The notes: generated by a model not told the origin, from the letters alone. A stretch of DNA of 64,000 nt from Ghiorsea bivora (GCF_000744415.1 NZ_JQLW01000005.1:286650-350649); one strand, 5' to 3'. Positions 21,389 to 31,334 are shown, counted from the first letter of the stretch. Translations and numbers: made by a program.

Positions 21389-22111
21389 TTAACCTTCTTG
21401 GGTGGTTGATATGGATTCAGGATGACCTTTTTGGGCAAGGGCAACCACAGCAGCGGGTAAGACAAAAATATTAAGAATGGGTACAACCATCAGTAGCAAT
21501 GATGTGCCACCAAAACCTAACCAAAACCAACGATTTTTTTTCATATCCGCTTTGCGTGCACTAAATTTTAAATCTTTGCGACTGGCTTGGGTGTCAAACA
21601 GTTCATAATTGAGGAACTGGATGCTGCCGTAAGTCCAAATCACTGTCATTAGTGGTGGAAACCAGAAGAATACCAGTGCCAATAGCCCCCAAAGCAATAA
21701 ACCAAATAAAGGACGAATGGAGTTGATAGCTGCCGCCAATGCCTGATTAGCCCAAGATGCATCATTTTCAACCGTGGCAAAACCCATGATTTTTTCTGTG
21801 CGATATGCCAAAGTATCCAGCCACGGTGCTGCCGCCGCAGATGCCAAAGCGACAAACGCCACAGCACCGACCACCACAGATAATAAACCGGCTAGAAATG
21901 ATGCAATATAACCAACAATCACCCAATACCACGCATCACCTTCAGGAATCCAAATCGAAGCCAAATAATCGGCAAAGAAAAACACGGCCAGCATTAAAAC
22001 GAGCATCAAACCTGCTAATAAACCAAGCATTCGCCACAACACAGCTCGCAGCTCTGCTTTGCCAAATAACATGATTAAACCTGAAAAAAATGTAGAAACT
22101 CCTTCAATCAT
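21389..22111 (-). CDS. EI24/CysZ-family membrane protein
   Basis: A 240-residue protein with about five or six hydrophobic helices, including a long central FLAGLLSVVVGAVAFVALASA segment, PWLDTLAYRTEKI, and WTYGSIQFLNYELFDTQASR as in EI24/CysZ proteins. CysZ in enterobacteria carries sulfate, but this gene is not with sulfate-assimilation genes and the substrate here is uncertain. Its first ~85 bases are duplicated as a broken copy at 27401-27475. Confidence 0.82.
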   Translation of the reverse strand: MIEGVSTFFSGLIMLFGKAELRAVLWRMLGLLAGLMLVLMLAVFFFADYLASIWIPEGDAWYWVIVGYIASFLAGLLSVVVGAVAFVALASAAAAPWLDTLAYRTEKIMGFATVENDASWANQALAAAINSIRPLFGLLLWGLLALVFFWFPPLMTVIWTYGSIQFLNYELFDTQASRKDLKFSARKADMKKNRWFWLGFGGTSLLLMVVPILNIFVLPAAVVALAQKGHPESISTTQEG

Positions 22112-22365
22112 TTAGCTGTCTCCATGTTCAAACTTGAGCAAAACCTACCGATTGTGGGTAATGTTGCTATAAAATCATTGAAGGCATTGATTTAGCATAG
22201 GTTTTGTGAGGACGCATGGGATATTTTAGCAAGTATTTCACTGCATACCAAACTTGGCTCGGCAGCGTAATGTTTTCAGGCTCATTCCCCCCAAAGCGCG
22301 AATGCGCACCATGGAATCATGCGATATAAGTACCGCTTTTTCAGTTTAAACATTTTGAATCTAGC
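22026..22365. repeat. Direct repeat A, left flank of the signalling cassette
   Basis: The stretch holds the 5' end of the EI24 gene, its upstream spacer and a fragment of a hydrolase gene. It matches 27401-27566 plus 27731-27858 (repeat B) in the same order and orientation, with scattered substitutions and small indels. Examples of shared blocks are TCTGCTTTGCCAAATAACAT, CATGTTCAAACTTGAG and AAAACCTACCGAT. Together the repeats bracket the five-kilobase two-component cassette. Confidence 0.85.
22240..22365 (-). pseudogene. Fragment of a LuxR/hydrolase gene, frameshifted
   Basis: Read on the minus strand it gives HDSMVRIRALGG and, after one frameshift, NEPENITLPSQVWYAVK. These line up with HDLMVRIRPWG.. 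and IEVPTQVWHAKDD of the intact gene at 27581-29317 (residues ~503-531). No start, catalytic serine or full domain remains, and a ~150-base piece after this segment is missing relative to the intact gene. It is the remnant created at the left edge of the inserted cassette. The rest of 22112-22520 holds no gene. Confidence 0.8.
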
Positions 22366-22417
22366 TCTTTGTATTTTGAGCTCTCAGCGTTAAACACCAC
22401 CCTTTTATTTTTTAAGA

Positions 22418-22447
22418 AACAACGCCTGATATCAGTATAGCGTTGTT
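22418..22447. promoter_or_regulatory. 30-bp dyad upstream of the response-regulator gene
   Basis: AACAACGC (22418-22425) and GCGTTGTT (22440-22447) are perfect inverted arms around CTGATATCAG, itself a palindrome. Directly after it come three near-copies of a TCCAAA(C/T)TG unit at 22456-22483. This is a possible operator for the excisionase-HTH response regulator, which starts at 22521, or a cassette boundary. Confidence 0.5.
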
Positions 22448-22520
22448 GCATAATTATCCAAACTATCCAAATTGTCCAAACTGGTTGAAAAGGTCGTTTT
22501 ATGTTCTAAACTGCTGCGCT

Positions 22521-23120
22521 ATGAATTTTATAACTACAGGTGAAGCTGCACGTAGGTGTGGTGTTGGTATCAATACAATTAAGCGATGGATGAAAAAAGG
22601 TGAGCTGAAATATATTGTTACACCTGGTGGCCATTGGCGCATTCGTGAACATGAATTTCGAACCTTCCTCAAAACCCACAACATGGATCTTCTACAAGAA
22701 AAGGAGCATACAAGTGAGGCTCATAAAATCTTACTGATTGAAGATGATTTGGACATGTGTGCACTCGTTGAAGGCGCTTTTGATGCGGCTACTTTTAATC
22801 ATACTTTTGACTATGCAAAAGATGGGTATAGCGGCTTAATAAAACTTGGCTTGATGCAACCTGATATTCTTATTCTTGATATCATGTTACCCGAAATAAA
22901 TGGCCTGGAGATTATTCAACGTATTCGTGCAACAGATTTCCACAAAAAGCCTAAAATCCTTGTTATTACTGGCGCAGGTGATCGGAGGCTGGTGAGAAGA
23001 GCCCTAGAGAAGGCTAAGCCAGACATGATTCTTGACAAACCCTTTGCCGTTGAAGACTTGATTCATGCAACTCAGAAAGTGCTAAGCTCAACAAGTGCTG
23101 TAGCGGCAGTAAACGAATGA
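22521..23120 (+). CDS. Response regulator with N-terminal MerR/excisionase-type HTH
   Basis: A 199-residue protein. Residues 4-50 (TTGEAARRCGVGINTIKRWMKKG, then GGHWRI) are a MerR/excisionase-like DNA-binding domain. Residues 68-190 are a receiver domain with the acidic pair EDD at 74-76, phospho-acceptor Asp120 in LILDIMLPE, and a conserved Lys in LDKPF. This is the reverse of the usual receiver-then-HTH order. A longer frame from 22443 starts in a dyad and repeat region, so ATG 22521 is preferred, though no good ribosome site is visible. It overlaps the next gene by four bases. Confidence 0.85.
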   Translation: MNFITTGEAARRCGVGINTIKRWMKKGELKYIVTPGGHWRIREHEFRTFLKTHNMDLLQEKEHTSEAHKILLIEDDLDMCALVEGAFDAATFNHTFDYAKDGYSGLIKLGLMQPDILILDIMLPEINGLEIIQRIRATDFHKKPKILVITGAGDRRLVRRALEKAKPDMILDKPFAVEDLIHATQKVLSSTSAVAAVNE

Positions 23121-23506
23121 GCGCACAAGCACGGTTAAAAACAGTACTGGTTGTTGATGATAACCCAACCCTTGTCGAATTATTTGCTGAAGTATTAAAT
23201 GAATTGTTTTATGTCAAAGTGGCTAATAGTGCCGTTGAAGCTATTACAAAACTCAGCAGTGATAGTATTGATGCGGTTGTTTGTGACTACCACCTTGGCA
23301 CGCAAAATGCAGAAGTCGTTATTGATTGGATTAATGAACAACAACCCCGACTTGCAAAGAAAATTATACTTCTAACTGGGGAAATAGGGCTGGATCCGAA
23401 TTTCTCTAAAAATAATTTTTCTGTCCTCTATAAACCTGTAGAGATGGAGGAGTTACTTATTGCGGTAGAAAGCCTATTTGAACGGAATCAAGGGCTCATG
23501 GAGTAA
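23117..23506 (+). CDS. Single-domain response regulator
   Basis: A 129-residue lone receiver domain. VLVVDDNPTL gives the acidic site, AVVCDYHLG the phospho-acceptor Asp, ILLTGE the Thr, and LYKPVEM the Lys. It has no output domain, so it probably relays phosphate or acts by protein contact. It overlaps the upstream HTH response regulator by four bases and is followed two bases later by the hybrid kinase, so one operon. Confidence 0.9.
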   Translation: MSAQARLKTVLVVDDNPTLVELFAEVLNELFYVKVANSAVEAITKLSSDSIDAVVCDYHLGTQNAEVVIDWINEQQPRLAKKIILLTGEIGLDPNFSKNNFSVLYKPVEMEELLIAVESLFERNQGLME

Positions 23507-23508
23507 GT

Positions 23509-26500
23509 ATGAAAAAATACTTTGAAAACAGCCTAAGCTTACGCTTAACCATGATGGTTATATTCATTATTACTCCCATATTAACTGTCAGCTTCTTTTG
23601 GTTAGACTCTCGTAGCGAAGCACTGATGCTTGAAGAGCAAGAAACTAGAGCATCTCAGATAGCAGAATCCCTTGCCACCAGTTTGAGCAGCATCATGCTT
23701 TCAGGTAATGCTGATATTGCGCATGACTGGTTAAATCGTATTACTTCTGTGCAGGGTGTTGAGTCAGTGAAGATATTTCGAACCGATGGTGTGGAGGCAT
23801 TCAAAGACCTTGACACACAGAACAAAGTAAATGCATACATTGGTCGCAAACAGTTTTCCCGTGAAGAAAATGGTAAGGCAGGAAAGATAGACAATAAAAT
23901 AATCCCCGAATTTGAAAAAGCCATTGCGGGTCAGACTTCAGTCCATCGCACTGAGGATAACCAACATCTGAGTTATATTTATCCCATTAAGTTAGAAACC
24001 GCATGCTTGGCTTGCCATGGTTATACTGAAAACCCTATCCGAGGTGTCTTGGTGCTTGGTGTATCCATTGGGGCAAGCCAATTTACTTTTGCAGAAACTG
24101 AAAACGATATGATTAAAATCATGTTTATCATATTTATCATTCTTGGTTTTGTTGTTTGGTTGCTGATTCGCAAACAAGTCTTGGAGCCCATCAACAATAT
24201 TGCCCAAATGGCTTCTAATATTCGCCATGGCGACCTTTCTTCTGAGATTAAGCTTAACCGCAAAGATGAATTGGGCATGGTTGCAAAGACGCTTGACCTG
24301 TTGGTATCTGACCTTAAAGAAAAAATTACTGATGAAGCTGGTCAAAGACAACGCCAAGAAGCGATTACCGATGCAGTTATATCCTTAGGGCAAAAAACGA
24401 CCAGTGCATTATTATTTAAACATATAGGCAAAATATGTGCGGAAGTTACCCATGCACCTTATGTTATGGTTTCTTATATCGAAGATGGAACGAAGCAATT
24501 TATTGCTCAAGGTATTCCTCCTGAAAGTGAAGCTAAAATTGCCCACCCTCCTAAAGGTAAAGGTCTGCTTGGTCTACTGTGGGATGAAAGCCAAACACTT
24601 AGGCTTGATAGTATTGCTTCACATCCAAAATCGAGTGGATTCCCAAGTGGACACCCTCCCATGGGGGCATTTCTTGGCACCCCTATGTGTTTTGAAGGTC
24701 AAGTGTTAGGTGTGATATACCTCTCCAAAAATCCACATGACTGTCCCTTTTCAGAGGATGATGAAAAAGCATTAGTTACACTCGCTGCAGCTTGTGCTAT
24801 CGCCCTATCGAACACACAGAATATTGAACGTGTTAAAGAGGCTAATAAAAATCTTGAAGCGCGTATAGATGCAAGAACCGATGCGCTTAAGCAAGCGAAT
24901 AAACAACTTAAAATACGTGAAGTAGAGCTGGAGTTGACCAATGAAGAGCTGGTCTCGGCAAATAAAGCCAAAGACCAATTTCTTGCCAACACCAGCCATG
25001 AGTTACGCACACCATTAAATGCCATTATTGGCTTCTCGGAATTATTGCAAAACCCTAGGTCTGGCAAATTAAGTGACAAACAACAACGTTACGTGGAGCA
25101 TGTACATAATAGCGGTAAACGTTTGCTAACGATTATCAATGACCTTCTTGATATCAGTAAAATTGAGTCTGGTATGATGGAAGTTCATGAAAGCACATTT
25201 AGCCCCGTTGAACTAATTAAACAAGTGGTTGCTGAATTAAGGCCTCTGGCTCAAAATAAAGAGATTGAAGTAAGTCTTGTCGAACCAGTAGGGCAAGAGC
25301 TAATGGTTAAATCGGATAAGGATAAGTTGCATCAAATTTTGGTAAACTTGCTCGGTAATGCCATTAAATTTACGCCTAATCAAGGAAAGGTTGAAGTCGG
25401 ACTTTCGCTTGATCAGTTAGCTAAACCAAGCAATGAAGCGAACCTTTCATTCTACGTCAAAGATAATGGTATCGGCATACCCATCGAAGATCAGGAAAAA
25501 ATATTTATGCCCTTTGCCCAGTCCAATGGAGGTCTAGATAGAGCCCATGGTGGTACGGGGCTTGGCCTATCACTTGCCAAATGTATGGTTCAACTCCTCG
25601 GTGGAACGATACAACTGACAAGTGAGATTGATAAAGGCACTACTTTTTTTGTTGAGCTTATCGTTATTGTTAAAGAACATGATTTATTTCATAAAGGTGA
25701 GTCGGATGAGAGTGCTATTATTGGCCGTTTGGAAAAACTAGCCTTGGCACCAACGGAGGAAGTTTTTCCTGACAAAGAACATCAGGCAATCATCATTATT
25801 ATTGATGAAAATAAGCAGCGTGCAAATCATGCTGCAGATATATTTACCAGTGAAGGTTATGAGGTTTGCCATACAGATATATCGAATATTGAAAAAGAAA
25901 GGTTCAAAACTTCACCCCTACTAATTATATTGGGCGTTCCAGAAGATAGCGAAAAAACATATGACCTAATCAAACAATTAAAATCTTCTGATTTTACAAA
26001 CCGAATCCCAACCATATTGATGGCTGGGGATGAAAAGAATCCTCATTTCGGTACAGGTGGAACTATAGGTCAGATTAAAAAAGGTATTGGGCGTAATGAT
26101 TTGCTTGAAATGGTTTCACACGCCTCTATACATACAAAACCTCCCACACCTCCCACACTGCTTGTGATTGATGATGATGCATCGGTACGTGAGTATTTAA
26201 AAGAAACCCTAGCGCCCGAAGGTTATCATATTTTGTTGGCAAGCAATGGAGCTGAAGGTATCCGTTTAGCTATTGAGCGAGAGCCTGATTTGATTATTCT
26301 TGACTTGATGATGCCTGAAGTGACGGGGTTTGAAGTCATGAATGAATTAAGGCAGCATCCAACGGCTTGTGATATTCCTGTGGTTATATTTACAGCCAAA
26401 GACCTTACCCGAGAAGAGGCTTTACAATTGGGTCAAGATGTTGAACGCATTCTAATTAAAGGTATGAGTAATAGTACTGATGTTATCAGTCAGGTACATA

Positions 26501-27024
26501 AGCTTGAAATGCTTTACCCAGTCCAAGCAAAACTGATTGATGTAAAACTCGGGTGTTTCAATTTTCGGTATATGCAAAGACGCTTACAAAATGAAGTTTC
26601 TCGTTTCAATCGATATTCACATAGTTTTTCACTTATTGCTTGGGAAATGGATGGTTTTGAGAATTATTGTCAAACACATGGCAGACGTTGGGGCTTGGCA
26701 GCACTAAAAGCGACTGTGTCGACAGGGCTTTCCATCATTCGTAAAGGTGATGTCTTAGCGCGCCTTGGTGACCATAGTTTTATCCTTCTTTTGCCTGGCA
26801 TCACTGAAGAAGGAACAAACCGTGTAGCAGAAAAGATTCGTCTGCGTATTCGTAGCCAACGTTTACCTCTACCCGACAATAAAACAGGTAAACTCACAGC
26901 CTCACTTGGTGCTGTATTATCAAGTGAGAAAGAGCCTGATGCACACCAGCTATTGTCAACCTTGCAGCATCGGTTAGATATTGCGAAAGAAGAAGGTGGA
27001 AACCGCACGGTAATGGAGGACTAA
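23509..27024 (+). CDS. Hybrid histidine kinase with periplasmic c-type heme motif
   Basis: An 1171-residue membrane sensor. TM1 is at ~13-31, a periplasmic Tll0287/DUF3365-like domain at ~32-200 contains CLACH (Cys166, Cys169, His170), a c-heme attachment motif, and TM2 is at ~203-221. Then come HAMP (~220-272), GAF (~285-435), a coiled coil, HisKA with SHELRTPLN (His497), HATPase (NAIKFTP, DNGIGIP, GGTGLGLSLAK), a first receiver lacking an acceptor Asp, an intact receiver (IDDDAS, LIILDLMMPE), and a GGDEF fold whose signature reads LGDHS, so it is probably not a cyclase. Likely a redox or gas sensor. Confidence 0.92.
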   Translation: MKKYFENSLSLRLTMMVIFIITPILTVSFFWLDSRSEALMLEEQETRASQIAESLATSLSSIMLSGNADIAHDWLNRITSVQGVESVKIFRTDGVEAFKDLDTQNKVNAYIGRKQFSREENGKAGKIDNKIIPEFEKAIAGQTSVHRTEDNQHLSYIYPIKLETACLACHGYTENPIRGVLVLGVSIGASQFTFAETENDMIKIMFIIFIILGFVVWLLIRKQVLEPINNIAQMASNIRHGDLSSEIKLNRKDELGMVAKTLDLLVSDLKEKITDEAGQRQRQEAITDAVISLGQKTTSALLFKHIGKICAEVTHAPYVMVSYIEDGTKQFIAQGIPPESEAKIAHPPKGKGLLGLLWDESQTLRLDSIASHPKSSGFPSGHPPMGAFLGTPMCFEGQVLGVIYLSKNPHDCPFSEDDEKALVTLAAACAIALSNTQNIERVKEANKNLEARIDARTDALKQANKQLKIREVELELTNEELVSANKAKDQFLANTSHELRTPLNAIIGFSELLQNPRSGKLSDKQQRYVEHVHNSGKRLLTIINDLLDISKIESGMMEVHESTFSPVELIKQVVAELRPLAQNKEIEVSLVEPVGQELMVKSDKDKLHQILVNLLGNAIKFTPNQGKVEVGLSLDQLAKPSNEANLSFYVKDNGIGIPIEDQEKIFMPFAQSNGGLDRAHGGTGLGLSLAKCMVQLLGGTIQLTSEIDKGTTFFVELIVIVKEHDLFHKGESDESAIIGRLEKLALAPTEEVFPDKEHQAIIIIIDENKQRANHAADIFTSEGYEVCHTDISNIEKERFKTSPLLIILGVPEDSEKTYDLIKQLKSSDFTNRIPTILMAGDEKNPHFGTGGTIGQIKKGIGRNDLLEMVSHASIHTKPPTPPTLLVIDDDASVREYLKETLAPEGYHILLASNGAEGIRLAIEREPDLIILDLMMPEVTGFEVMNELRQHPTACDIPVVIFTAKDLTREEALQLGQDVERILIKGMSNSTDVISQVHKLEMLYPVQAKLIDVKLGCFNFRYMQRRLQNEVSRFNRYSHSFSLIAWEMDGFENYCQTHGRRWGLAALKATVSTGLSIIRKGDVLARLGDHSFILLLPGITEEGTNRVAEKIRLRIRSQRLPLPDNKTGKLTASLGAVLSSEKEPDAHQLLSTLQHRLDIAKEEGGNRTVMED

Positions 27025-27393
27025 ATGAAGAATCCCAAGATTCTTATTGTTGATGATAATCCTCTTAATTTAGAGCTTGCATGTGATGTTCTTGAACTCG
27101 AAGGCTTTCATGTCACGCTTGTTGATAGTGGAGAAGAGTCCATTATTGTTTCGCAACAAAATCCGCCAGATCTGATTCTGATGGATTTGCGCATGCCTGG
27201 CATGAGTGGAATCGATGCATTGCATGGCATACGGAAACATGCCATTACCCAAGATATTCCAGTTGTGGTGCTAACGGCATCAGTCATGGCAGGAGAAAAA
27301 GATCGTTTGCTGGCGGAAGGTTTTGATGGTTTTATGCAAAAACCAATTTCACCAGCTACTTTTGCTGCTGAGGTCAGTGCTTTCTTACGGTGA
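27025..27393 (+). CDS. Single-domain response regulator
   Basis: A 122-residue lone receiver: ILIVDDNPLN, LILMDLRMPGMSG with the acceptor Asp, VVLTAS, and MQKPISP with the Lys. The ATG immediately follows the kinase stop, so it is in the same operon. It is more canonical (CheY/DivK-like) than the receiver at 23117. The cassette ends here; the next bases are a broken copy of the EI24 gene start. Confidence 0.92.
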   Translation: MKNPKILIVDDNPLNLELACDVLELEGFHVTLVDSGEESIIVSQQNPPDLILMDLRMPGMSGIDALHGIRKHAITQDIPVVVLTASVMAGEKDRLLAEGFDGFMQKPISPATFAAEVSAFLR

Positions 27394-27400
27394 TTGCACC

Positions 27401-27475
27401 AGCATTCGCCACAATACACTCTGCTTTGCCAAATAACATAATCAAACCTGAAAAAGTGTCTGCACCTTCAATCAT
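27401..27475 (-). pseudogene. Remnant of the EI24/CysZ gene 5' end (within direct repeat B)
   Basis: On the minus strand the start reads MIEGADTFSGLIMLFGKAE, against MIEGVSTFFSGLIMLFGKAE in the intact gene ending at 22111, then it loses frame at an 11-base deletion. The matching spacer continues to about 27566, and the repeat resumes inside the hydrolase gene at 27731-27858. It marks the right edge of the inserted signalling cassette. Nothing else is seen in 27394-27580. Confidence 0.85.
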
Positions 27476-27580
27476 TTGGCTGTCTTCATGTTCAAACTTG
27501 AGAAAAACCTACCGATATGGGTATGTTGCTATAAATCATTAAAGCCGTGGTTTATCATGGGTTCTGTACATTCTGAGTGG

Positions 27581-29317
27581 TTAAGAGTAGCTAGACTTTA
27601 GGTGAACCAGTATACGACTAAAATGCTCATATAAGATATAATGCCCTCCATGCTCTAGTGTATGCATTATTGCATTGGGTATGTTGCTTGTCAGTGTTTT
27701 ACCGCAGCAAAAGGGTGAAATCGTATCATCTTTTGCATGCCAAACCTGAGTTGGCACTTCAATGTTTTTAAGCTCAAATCCCCAGGGTCGAATACGAACC
27801 ATTAAATCGTGTGAAACAGCGGCTGTTTTTTCAGGGTACACACTTTGAATCCAATGTTTAAGGTAGTCATTTACATCCTTGGATTGTAAAAATACTTTTT
27901 CAGATGTTGAAGCATAAACAAAGGCACGTTTCGTTAGCTCATCAGGGCGTTGCCACATGCTGCGCAATACGGTTTTTGAAAGTACACGCAACGCTCTTTT
28001 TGGTAAATGCTTGCCCAATTGCAACATATACCGATCTGCAGGTGGCAGATCTTTTCGTTGGTCTATGTCGGGTGGTACGATTGGGGCAACCAGCGTAAGA
28101 GAGGTAGTGTATTTAGGGTAGAAGTATGCGAGAGCTGAGGCATAAGGTGCACCATTGGAGTACCCAAGCACGTGGAATGTTGAGATATCCAATGTTTGGG
28201 TTAATTGTATAATATCTTTGGCGTGGTCATGTAGGGAAGGTGTTGTGCTAATCCAGTCAGAATTTAGGAAACCTGGACGCATAGGTACAATGATGTGAAA
28301 ATCCTTGGTGTTTTGTAATGTTTTGTTGGGTAGCAACTGTTGGTCAGAGTGTACCAAAGCATGACAATAAATGAGAGGCTCAGCATTGGGGTTACCAAAT
28401 GTCATATAGCCAAATTTACGTCCATCAAAAAGTGTGATGGAATGATGTGTAGGGTGAGGTTCAAAAAAGGGGTGGAGATTATTTTGTTTGAGAATAGCAG
28501 GGCTGGTTAAAATCATTTTCACCAATTCGACCTGGCTAGAACACTGTGTTTTAGCAAAAATTCTTTTCATATGTGTTCGTGCAGTATGCACACTAATGCC
28601 GATAGTATCAGCGGCTTCAACTAGGTTATGGCAGCCATTGGTTAAGGTTTTGGTTAGATGTGTTTCTGCAGCAGTTAAACCAAAATGTTTTTGTAAAACC
28701 AAGGTGTCATATTCGGGTTTAATACATGAAGATATGATATAAATAGCGATAAGATTTTGTTCGGCATGTTCAGGTGTGTTTTGGTTTAGCATTGTAGAAA
28801 TCCAAATAGATAATGTTGGTTGGTTAGCACCCTGAACCAAAGAAAGTGAGATGCCATCTTCTTGACTGCTACCATCGGAGAGTTGTTGAATATGCTGATG
28901 CAGTAAGGTTGTGTTTTGTGGGGTGTTAGCTTGAAGTGTATTTGCTTGAATAGATAAAGCGTGATGGGTGTTGATGGATTCGCTTGCTTGTTGATTTAGG
29001 GTAATTACTTCTGCTTTTGCATTGGTCACAATCACCCCAATGGGTAATTGGTCGAGTAGTTGTGATGAAATGAATTGCTGATGCGTAGCTTTATCGGATA
29101 CTTCATTAAACTGGAAGGAGCGAAGTAGGTGGTTACTAAGCTGATCGACTTGCTCAGATAACATACCGCTGGGGCTATTTTTTCCTTCAAAATGTTGTAA
29201 ATACTGATCCATATCTTTTAACAATTGTGGCCACCGCTCGTCAGTTTGTGATGTATCGTAAATGAGCTCAATAAGCTCAGATACTTCGACAAGTGCTTGC
29301 GATGTTTTTCGATTCAA
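27581..29317 (-). CDS. LuxR-type HTH regulator fused to an alpha/beta hydrolase
   Basis: A 578-residue fusion. Residues ~85-195 look like a PAS-type domain (LPIGVIVTNAKAEVITLNQQA). Residues ~205-268 are a LuxR HTH (FGLTAAETHLTKTL, GISVHTARTHMKRIFAKT). Residues ~295-575 are an alpha/beta hydrolase with the nucleophile elbow GYSNG (Ser387), Asp530/531 in HAKDD and His559 in HGGHY, a complete catalytic triad. It has no signal peptide. The fusion suggests that ligand binding or hydrolysis controls DNA binding; substrate and targets are unknown. It stands alone on the minus strand beside the signalling cassette. A fragment of it is duplicated at 22240-22365. Confidence 0.88.
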   Translation of the reverse strand: MNRKTSQALVEVSELIELIYDTSQTDERWPQLLKDMDQYLQHFEGKNSPSGMLSEQVDQLSNHLLRSFQFNEVSDKATHQQFISSQLLDQLPIGVIVTNAKAEVITLNQQASESINTHHALSIQANTLQANTPQNTTLLHQHIQQLSDGSSQEDGISLSLVQGANQPTLSIWISTMLNQNTPEHAEQNLIAIYIISSCIKPEYDTLVLQKHFGLTAAETHLTKTLTNGCHNLVEAADTIGISVHTARTHMKRIFAKTQCSSQVELVKMILTSPAILKQNNLHPFFEPHPTHHSITLFDGRKFGYMTFGNPNAEPLIYCHALVHSDQQLLPNKTLQNTKDFHIIVPMRPGFLNSDWISTTPSLHDHAKDIIQLTQTLDISTFHVLGYSNGAPYASALAYFYPKYTTSLTLVAPIVPPDIDQRKDLPPADRYMLQLGKHLPKRALRVLSKTVLRSMWQRPDELTKRAFVYASTSEKVFLQSKDVNDYLKHWIQSVYPEKTAAVSHDLMVRIRPWGFELKNIEVPTQVWHAKDDTISPFCCGKTLTSNIPNAIMHTLEHGGHYILYEHFSRILVHLKSSYS

Positions 29318-29471
29318 GATGATTTCTCCTGGTGAAAAGGTGCAGGCAAACAGTGTGTTTTTAGATGGATATTATTTGAGTATACCCTATTTGGGTGATT
29401 CGGGCAATGTCATGGTGGTTTATCATTGTTGATATGGGGAGAACAGTGGATAGGAAAAACAGGAGCGCACC

Positions 29472-31280
29472 ATGAGAAAACAAAAGGTTAAAATTTTAGC
29501 AGTGATAACCATGATAGGGTTTGTAGGATGTAGCTCAGGAGGTGATTCTCCACCACAAGCTGTACCTATTGCTACTTCTCCAGTAACAAGTTCGACGCTA
29601 GTTTCTGGTGTTGTTGCAACAGGTGCACCGTTAGTAGGATTTGTGGCAGTTAAAGGTTCAGCTGGTAATGTTGCTACGGCTAATATTGATGCACAGGGCA
29701 AATATTCGGTTGATACTAGCAACTTAACATTGCCGCTTGTGCTTTATGCCAGTGGTATCTCGGGCGGCAAGGCATATAGTATTATCTCGGCAGCTACGAT
29801 CAGTGATGTGGGAAACACAGTAAATATCACACCGTTAACAGACTTAATTGTATCCAATGTTGCGGGGTCGCATAGTGAGGCTTTCTTTAATAATCCTAAT
29901 TATACATTGTTAAGTGCGAACAATTTAACAGCGGCAAAAGATGTACTGGCATTGCGACTAGAGCCAATGTTAACAGCTGCAGGTTTGGGGGCGGGTTTTG
30001 ATTTGATGAATGCGGCATTTAATGCGGATCACACGGGTTATGATGCACTGTTAGATTTGTTGGATGTGCAGGTGGATACAACCACTAATCAAGCAACCAT
30101 TACTTATGCTTTAGACTCGGCTATTACGATTACCGATGATTTGACAACTACAGCGGATGCTACACCGATAGGTGCAGTGAATACTGGAGTTTTTCAAGCC
30201 AATGGGGCAATCATTCAAGAAATTAATGCATTTATGCTGAGTATGAATGCTTTGTTTGCCAATGGTACACCCGCCGCAGCAACGGTTAGCCCATTTTTTA
30301 CAGCGGGTTTTTTGCACCAAGGTACAGACAATGCAGCAGCAGTTACCTTGTTTAGCTCTACTCTTCCAGCACATCAGTCCTTAACTGCAAATATTATTGC
30401 TACTTTTGGTGCATTTTCAATCGTGTCGATTGATACAACAGTGAATCCGCAATTGGCAACCATTCGTTCATCCGATAGTAAATTGATGAATTTAGAAAAA
30501 TCTGTTGCTGCAGGTTGGCAGTTAGCTGGTGATGGTCATGTTTGGGGAGCAGAAGCAGCACCTGAAAGCCACTTAGACCAAGCAACGGGTACTGTCATTA
30601 ATAACTTCTTGCTCAGTGTTGATGATGCTTCAGGGGTAGCTATTTTGCCAAATGATTATTTTATAATTACAGGGCCAGGTGTAAATGCCAATGGTGGTGT
30701 GATTGTGCAATATGATTTTAATAATTTTAATAACGCGGTAGGTAAAACGGCTTTAATGTGGTCTATAGATGTGACGGATGTGACAGCTTTAACTTTTCCT
30801 GATGGCGCTGACTATACGGTGACTAGATATAGAGATGTTAATGGCGACACCAATATTGTGGCTGGAGTAAATCAAGTAAATGTGAATGATGCTTCTACAT
30901 TAATAGTGGGTCTTGTTGATACATTGATTGATTCTCAAGTGGTTCGGTTGGTCAAACGCCCAATCAAACCCTCTGAAACAACATCGTATATTACCATTAC
31001 AAACCCAACCACAGTTGGTTTTTTAGGGTTTACTTCAGGAACAATCAATGCGGCATGGACTCTACCTGTAGGTTCACGGTCGGGAACAGTCGATTTATCT
31101 GAATTTGACTCAGCAGCAGGTAGTTTCGTGTGGCTTGTAGAAAATGAGGTAGCAGATACAGCAACATCATTTTCATTTCTAGCACCAGCACCAACAAATA
31201 TAACCAGTAAACCTGGCTTGTATGTTTTTGGTTATGATGTGTTTAATCGTGTGACAGCAACGCATATCAATTCTTACTAA
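29472..31280 (+). CDS. Large lipoprotein of unknown function
   Basis: A 602-residue exported protein. The signal peptide ends FVG before Cys20, followed by SSGGD, so it is a lipoprotein likely to reach the outer membrane. Residues ~40-100 (VSGVVATGAPLVGFVAVKG...GKYSVDTSNL) look like a carboxypeptidase-regulatory/Big-type beta sandwich. The rest is Thr/Ala/Asn-rich beta sequence with no motif I recognise. AGGAG precedes the ATG. It is monocistronic: a strong terminator follows at 31299. Confidence 0.8.
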   Translation: MRKQKVKILAVITMIGFVGCSSGGDSPPQAVPIATSPVTSSTLVSGVVATGAPLVGFVAVKGSAGNVATANIDAQGKYSVDTSNLTLPLVLYASGISGGKAYSIISAATISDVGNTVNITPLTDLIVSNVAGSHSEAFFNNPNYTLLSANNLTAAKDVLALRLEPMLTAAGLGAGFDLMNAAFNADHTGYDALLDLLDVQVDTTTNQATITYALDSAITITDDLTTTADATPIGAVNTGVFQANGAIIQEINAFMLSMNALFANGTPAAATVSPFFTAGFLHQGTDNAAAVTLFSSTLPAHQSLTANIIATFGAFSIVSIDTTVNPQLATIRSSDSKLMNLEKSVAAGWQLAGDGHVWGAEAAPESHLDQATGTVINNFLLSVDDASGVAILPNDYFIITGPGVNANGGVIVQYDFNNFNNAVGKTALMWSIDVTDVTALTFPDGADYTVTRYRDVNGDTNIVAGVNQVNVNDASTLIVGLVDTLIDSQVVRLVKRPIKPSETTSYITITNPTTVGFLGFTSGTINAAWTLPVGSRSGTVDLSEFDSAAGSFVWLVENEVADTATSFSFLAPAPTNITSKPGLYVFGYDVFNRVTATHINSY

Positions 31281-31298
31281 CCGTATGGTTTGATAACT

Positions 31299-31334
31299 AA
31301 ACGCCATGTGCTTTACAGTGCATGGCGTTTTTTA
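31299..31334 (+). terminator. Rho-independent terminator after the large lipoprotein gene
   Basis: AAACGCCATG at 31299-31308 pairs perfectly with CATGGCGTTT at 31321-31330, closing a 12-base loop. The stem runs into TTTTTT and a T-rich tail. It ends the lipoprotein transcript and lies before tldD, which argues against a tldD start as far upstream as 31322. Confidence 0.88.

Follow-up and report, generated by a model that had tools for sequence, protein, structure and literature searches.

A four-gene phosphorelay operon between diverged direct repeats at the EI24-tldD junction of Ghiorsea bivora: a probable case of horizontal acquisition through homologous recombination

A 64,000-nucleotide stretch of the Ghiorsea bivora genome (GCF_000744415.1, NZ_JQLW01000005.1:286650-350649; hereafter the window, with positions counted from its first letter) carries a block of four coupled signalling genes, which is enclosed by two copies of a diverged direct repeat (Table 1). 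In operon order these genes encode a helix-turn-helix (HTH) protein fused to a receiver, a single-domain receiver, a hybrid histidine kinase of 1171 amino acids (aa) and another single-domain receiver. On the left side the block is flanked by a gene for an EI24-type membrane protein of 240 aa, which shows 79–87% identity in most Ghiorsea genomes, and on the right side by a gene for a hydrolase of 578 aa. The original prediction, made from the sequence of the window, had described a cassette between repeats with two gene remnants and had proposed an integration through homologous recombination, either old or from a divergent donor, of what could be a mobile redox-sensing unit.

Table 1. Features of the repeat-flanked signalling operon and its borders, in window coordinates
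Feature	Position	Strand	Basis or remark
EI24/CysZ-like membrane protein, intact, left target gene	21389-22111	-	PF07264, E 2e-21
Left direct repeat: EI24 5' end, tldD 5' remnant, hydrolase 3' remnant	22026-22365		
tldD 5' remnant, left copy (MFKLEQNLPIVGNVAIKSLKALI*)	22124-22195	+	Aligns with tldD starts of G002, G005, G003, G008 and with the own tldD
Hydrolase remnant, broken, part of 3' region	22242-22365	-	69% to 27734-27851
Inserted block (signalling cassette), 5.0 kb	22366-27400	+	Not in 15 other Ghiorsea genomes; empty site in G013
Putative operator: three 9-bp tandem repeats and a degenerate fourth (TATCCAAAC TATCCAAAT TGTCCAAAC TGGTTGAAA)	22455-22490	+	
Putative sigma-70 promoter, TTGAAA-16-TAAACT	22485-22512	+	Consensus scan only
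BldC/MerR-like HTH_17 fused to receiver	22521-23120	+	HTH_17, E 1e-11; Response_reg, E 6e-18
Single-domain receiver	23117-23506	+	Response_reg
Hybrid histidine kinase: heme-Cache (CLACHGY), HAMP, GAF, HisKA, HATPase, receiver, degenerate GGDEF	23509-27024	+	Pfam
Single-domain receiver, last operon gene	27025-27393	+	Response_reg, E 2e-25
Right direct repeat	27401-27858		
EI24 5' remnant	27401-27475	-	Broken by 8-bp deletion
tldD 5' remnant, right copy, frameshifted	27488-27567	+	Alignment to tldD starts
Hydrolase, alpha/beta-hydrolase fold, intact, right target gene	27581-29317	-	Abhydrolase_1, E 2e-12

By local alignment the repeat falls into two parts. The first, 22026-22207 against 27401-27567, shows 81% identity over 182 columns (E 6e-41) and reaches a score of 189, whereas none of 200 shuffles scored above 28; the second, 22242-22361 against 27734-27851, shows 69% over 120 columns (E 8e-8). 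In a search of the whole genome, a 2.15-Mb assembly of 13 contigs, the repeat sequence was confined to these two sites, and local alignment gave no sign of duplicated sequence reaching past 22365 or starting ahead of 27401. Each copy represents a three-gene junction, composed of the start of EI24, a remnant of the start of tldD and the end of the hydrolase gene. The predicted reciprocal pattern is borne out: in the left copy the EI24 start is whole and the hydrolase broken, in the right copy the EI24 start is broken and the hydrolase whole. Only a stretch of the 3' part is left of the left hydrolase, interrupted by stops and frameshifts and recognized with the window hydrolase as tblastn query (combined E 9e-07). 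On the right, an 8-bp deletion cuts the EI24 5' end, which joins the cassette 8 bp past the last stop codon. The left repeat is furthermore short of about 130 bp, with 34 bp at 22208-22241 facing about 166 bp on the right. What had been taken for a plain spacer between the two gene remnants holds a third one, the first approximately 23 codons of tldD, in both copies; the intact tldD of the window begins at 31322. Of the 48 differences between the left and right repeat, 25 are located at third codon positions, which suggests that the copies may have diverged, at least in part, while both still coded. Their 81% identity is near the value found between Ghiorsea species at the same junction (73–79%).

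The presence of a tldD start within the repeat is explained by the arrangement in related genomes, because EI24 and tldD back to back represent the ancestral state; this arrangement, without any remnants, is found in four Ghiorsea genomes (G002, G003, G005, G008). In G013, the closest relative examined (identity of 93% for PPX, 97% for PPK2, 92% for ABC-F, 83% for EI24 and 93% for TldD), the order is EI24-hydrolase-lipoprotein-tldD, with about 100 bp from EI24 to the hydrolase and not a single signalling gene. This uninterrupted junction is an empty site, syntenic rather than near-identical, of the kind that the original prediction had called for. Neither of the two outcomes named there as fatal to the idea, the cassette in relatives without an empty site and an insignificant repeat similarity, was obtained. 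The G013 lipoprotein resembles the window open reading frame (ORF) at 29472-31280 at its N-terminus only (E 5e-4). A possible tldD remnant in G013 was marginal, as 1–59 of 500 shuffles scored equally high, and is not claimed. The history of the site falls into three stages: EI24 and tldD adjacent, as in the four genomes named above; a hydrolase and a lipoprotein-like gene between them, as in G013; and the state of the window, with the operon and a duplicated junction. Since both repeat copies keep the order of EI24, tldD and hydrolase pieces, the duplication postdates the arrival of the hydrolase, and this shared order points to a single duplication of a single segment.

The EI24-tldD junction (window 22112-31321; L093, L094, L097, L099, L100) is a variable spot, whose cargo differs by Ghiorsea species. 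It holds a NERD-domain gene in G007 and an unknown gene of 474 aa in G009, and in G006 there are transposases near EI24. G015 possesses a tldD 5' remnant of its own (L100:8200-8365), approximately 20 codons adjoining EI24 and independent of those in the window, followed by a second copy of the ORF166-like gene located downstream of tldD. In G008 (L106:7526-14348) a pair of hydrolase homologues lies within a short distance, the coding sequence of one being divided over two reading frames.

The distribution of the operon is scattered. A kinase homologue (E <= 1e-120) is present in 17 of 78 Zetaproteobacteria genomes and in one of 16 Ghiorsea genomes, and the HTH-receiver protein shows the same distribution. 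The gene order HTH-receiver, receiver, kinase, receiver is kept in at least ten other genomes, in agreement with the predicted coupling of the four genes, and the operon lies there in several neighbourhoods unrelated to one another. Neighbours identified by eye were argininosuccinate lyase (G078, G084), acetyl-CoA acyltransferase (G090), UvrB (G063, G068) and pyruvate phosphate dikinase together with TolQ/TolR (G076, G079), with Tol genes also near the operon of G075. In a maximum likelihood tree of kinase residues 291–1171, the window kinase groups with those of G078 and G084 (support 92), then with G090 and G087 (support 100). It thereby nests, with 62–63% identity, inside genus g9, which is probably Mariprofundus. 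At 12 other operon loci a search for target-like repeats gave no more than weak matches, of which that in G027 (49 bp, E 1e-5) was the best; the repeats are therefore a property of the Ghiorsea target rather than of the cargo. Neither in the window nor in the relatives was a recombinase or transposase gene recognized beside the operon, and viral contigs yielded no operon relatives. The plasmid search returned generic kinase matches only, all below 60% identity and none covering 80% of the query. There is no tRNA gene in the window, and a tRNA or phage-type attachment is not supported. As judged from the varied neighbourhoods, free of such repeats and of recognized mobility genes, the operon reached the ancestor of this strain by horizontal transfer and does not appear to be a self-mobile element; a lineage close to g9 is its likely source. 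Thus, the proposed horizontal origin is upheld, and the proposed mobility of the unit is not.

Elsewhere in the window, 37499-38008 matches a tyrosine recombinase (305 aa), the only integrase-family match there and probably the housekeeping XerC; a similar gene is located near tldD in the cassette-free G003. Another and larger cluster of hybrid kinases and receivers is present in the genome of the window (C10; L157:831-16418; G000:C10:137000-156000), which is led by a 41% paralogue of the HTH-receiver protein and has 9-bp spaced GTC motifs upstream that are not significant alone.

How did the operon enter the chromosome? With a probability of roughly two in three, we consider it a horizontally acquired phosphorelay operon that was inserted at the junction of EI24, tldD remnant and hydrolase by a Campbell-like crossover, which left about 460 bp in two copies. 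The donor molecule would have carried the operon joined to a homologous segment of this length, with the EI24 and tldD starts and the hydrolase 3' end, and after a single crossover within the corresponding chromosomal segment EI24 would be intact and the hydrolase broken on the left, whereas the reverse would hold on the right. Decay of the redundant gene halves would follow. Several points weigh against this reading. The bias towards third codon positions is equally obtainable from synonymous drift in intact copies. In none of the 78 genomes of the class, nor in the viral contigs, was a donor molecule or genome found that combines the operon with such a segment, and the donor may be unsampled. 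The long branch of the window in the kinase tree (0.37) speaks for an old event, one of the two options in the original prediction, of which the traces of mechanism are faint, and the inner repeat ends could be the trimmed remains of longer duplicated genes. The GC content of the block, 0.407 compared to 0.411–0.43 in the flanks, gives no foreign signature, so that the base composition proposed as a check did not reveal one. Finally, the syntenic hydrolase of G013 is just 39–40% identical to the window hydrolase, whereas the neighbouring genes reach 83–97%, which would indicate either a gene replacement or very fast evolution.

The same scar can be obtained in other ways, and integration by homologous recombination stands as the simplest explanation rather than the only one. 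The EI24-hydrolase block could have been doubled in tandem, with the operon later taking the place of the middle, which comprised the larger parts of the left hydrolase and the right EI24. Identical reciprocal remnants are then expected, and a local duplication at this spot is also seen in G015; however, two events plus a replacement are needed, and the lack of any duplicated sequence beyond the inner repeat ends argues against it, so that we regard this course as unlikely. Rather improbable, too, appears a homology-facilitated illegitimate recombination of a linear fragment, in which one side is joined by homologous crossover and the other by end joining, so that a partial duplication results. 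This process is known for transforming and conjugated DNA (PMC3240628). It predicts repeats flanking an insert without recombinase genes, as seen here, but the operon would already have had to lie next to a truncated EI24 in the donor, and no such donor was found. Both courses would leave nearly the same scar as the single crossover (see PMC3240628, PMC3784515).

Two further explanations are weaker still. If the operon were ancestral in Ghiorsea and lost elsewhere, with the repeats an unrelated local duplication, its scattered occurrence in the class would be accounted for, and several Ghiorsea genomes are incomplete. This is very improbable in view of the remnant-free EI24-tldD junctions in four Ghiorsea genomes, the position of the repeats exactly at both operon ends and the placement of the kinase inside g9. 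An insertion of the site-specific or transposon type, in which the repeats would be attachment sites or duplicated target sequence, would fit the various inserts between EI24 and tldD in several Ghiorsea. Yet we give it hardly any credence, as a repeat of about 460 bp is built here of three gene pieces, the block is devoid of a recombinase, the sole integrase-family match of the window looks like XerC, and no such repeats surround the operon elsewhere; an element with its own recombinase and terminal repeats is not what was found.

For the HTH of the first gene product of the operon, the nearest solved structures are those of BldC (6ama/6amk, E 1e-5), with SoxR far behind (0.56). BldC binds 9-bp direct repeats in head-to-tail orientation (PMC5859096), and a comparable periodicity is present in front of the operon: in the pooled upstream regions of 13 operons the self-similarity at lag 9 reaches a z of 10.5 over shuffles, compared to at most 2.1 for other lags. 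The window array has 20 of 27 matches, which was equalled by none of 3163 background windows, and it abuts or overlaps the promoter-like -35 element. Such 9-bp repeats are present upstream of the operon in most relatives; in G090, G027, G033 and for the C10 paralogue they were not significant singly, and it is the pooled test, along with the strongest arrays, that carries the claim. The exact array occurs once in the genome, and the strict array pattern gave no further targets of the regulator in it. The BldC-like HTH together with the 9-bp repeats at the promoter leads to the prediction that this regulator probably controls its own operon: the HTH/receiver protein would bind head to tail on the repeats and thereby set operon expression. 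Only 9 bp separate the promoter-like -10 element from the ATG with which the HTH-receiver gene starts (window 22507-22521), so that the operon message may be leaderless; the relatives have longer leaders.

On the sensory side, the Tll0287-like domain of the kinase (PF11845, DUF3365) scores 24.9 bits against a cut-off of 24.1. A CXXCH followed by GY is found in 12 of 12 full-length kinase homologues; the shorter matches of G090, G087, G026, G033 and G068 start after the sensor part. The AlphaFold model of residues 1–240 (pLDDT 76) has its best solved matches in the heme sensor domains of GSU0935 and GSU0582 (3b42, 3b47; E 6e-5 to 1e-4), with a poor global superposition (TM <= 0.51). In all homologues having that region the GGDEF signature is lost; therefore, no synthesis of cyclic di-GMP is expected. 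The domain has been named sCache_heme, and its versions fused to signalling modules are reported to behave as sensors of nitric oxide and not of oxygen (PMC12889525). The redox sensing originally proposed thus remains plausible, but published biochemistry favours nitric oxide. Judged from its domains, the periplasmic c-type heme-Cache of the kinase is predicted to sense nitric oxide or heme redox state; autophosphorylation would follow, and then phosphotransfer via the internal and the free receivers to the BldC-like HTH/receiver protein.

Taken together, the locus is a well-preserved scar of horizontal acquisition around an interesting, not unprecedented, signalling operon. It offers a clean fossil of a complete signalling operon that entered a chromosome without mobility genes of its own, with pre-insertion states surviving in sister species. 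The cargo couples a recently described type of nitric oxide/redox heme sensor to a BldC-like response regulator, whose putative operator is readable from sequence. The fusion of a BldC-like HTH and a receiver is apparently an undescribed type of response regulator; a narrowly worded literature search found no receiver proteins with a MerR-type domain, which is weak evidence. As a tentative wider picture, the operon might be a sensory module recurrently exchanged among Zetaproteobacteria. Its heme-Cache phosphorelay would act through a new class of response regulator, a phospho-switched BldC-like HTH oligomerizing head to tail on 9-bp repeats, and the module would travel with its own operator and insert through plain homologous recombination into variable junctions like that of EI24 and tldD. 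A direct test becomes possible, both of the signal that some iron-oxidising bacteria track and of a BldC-type DNA binding controlled by phosphorylation.

The locus can be compared to three known systems. With a Campbell-type, single-crossover integration or merodiploid it shares the direct repeats of the target, the reciprocal broken and intact gene halves and the empty site in relatives; it differs in that the donor is not seen here and that the repeats are diverged (81% and 69%) and partly deleted. Like the sCache_heme kinases, the kinase has the invariant CXXCH, a periplasmic site before HAMP, a Pfam score above the cut-off and the fold matches to GSU0935/GSU0582. In contrast to these it is a long hybrid with GAF, receiver and degenerate GGDEF, in an operon with three receiver proteins. 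In case of the BldC family, the structure matches of the HTH and the 9-bp tandem direct repeats as putative operator are in common, and the positions R30, W31 and H46 are conserved. However, of the head-to-tail core residues Leu43, Trp31 and Phe21 (roles and numbering from PMC5859096), Leu43 is replaced by Pro and Phe21 by Cys. BldC is furthermore a stand-alone protein of 68 residues that recognizes the repeat AATTNNNNC, whereas the regulator of the window is fused to a receiver and its repeat is AAAYTRTCC-like.

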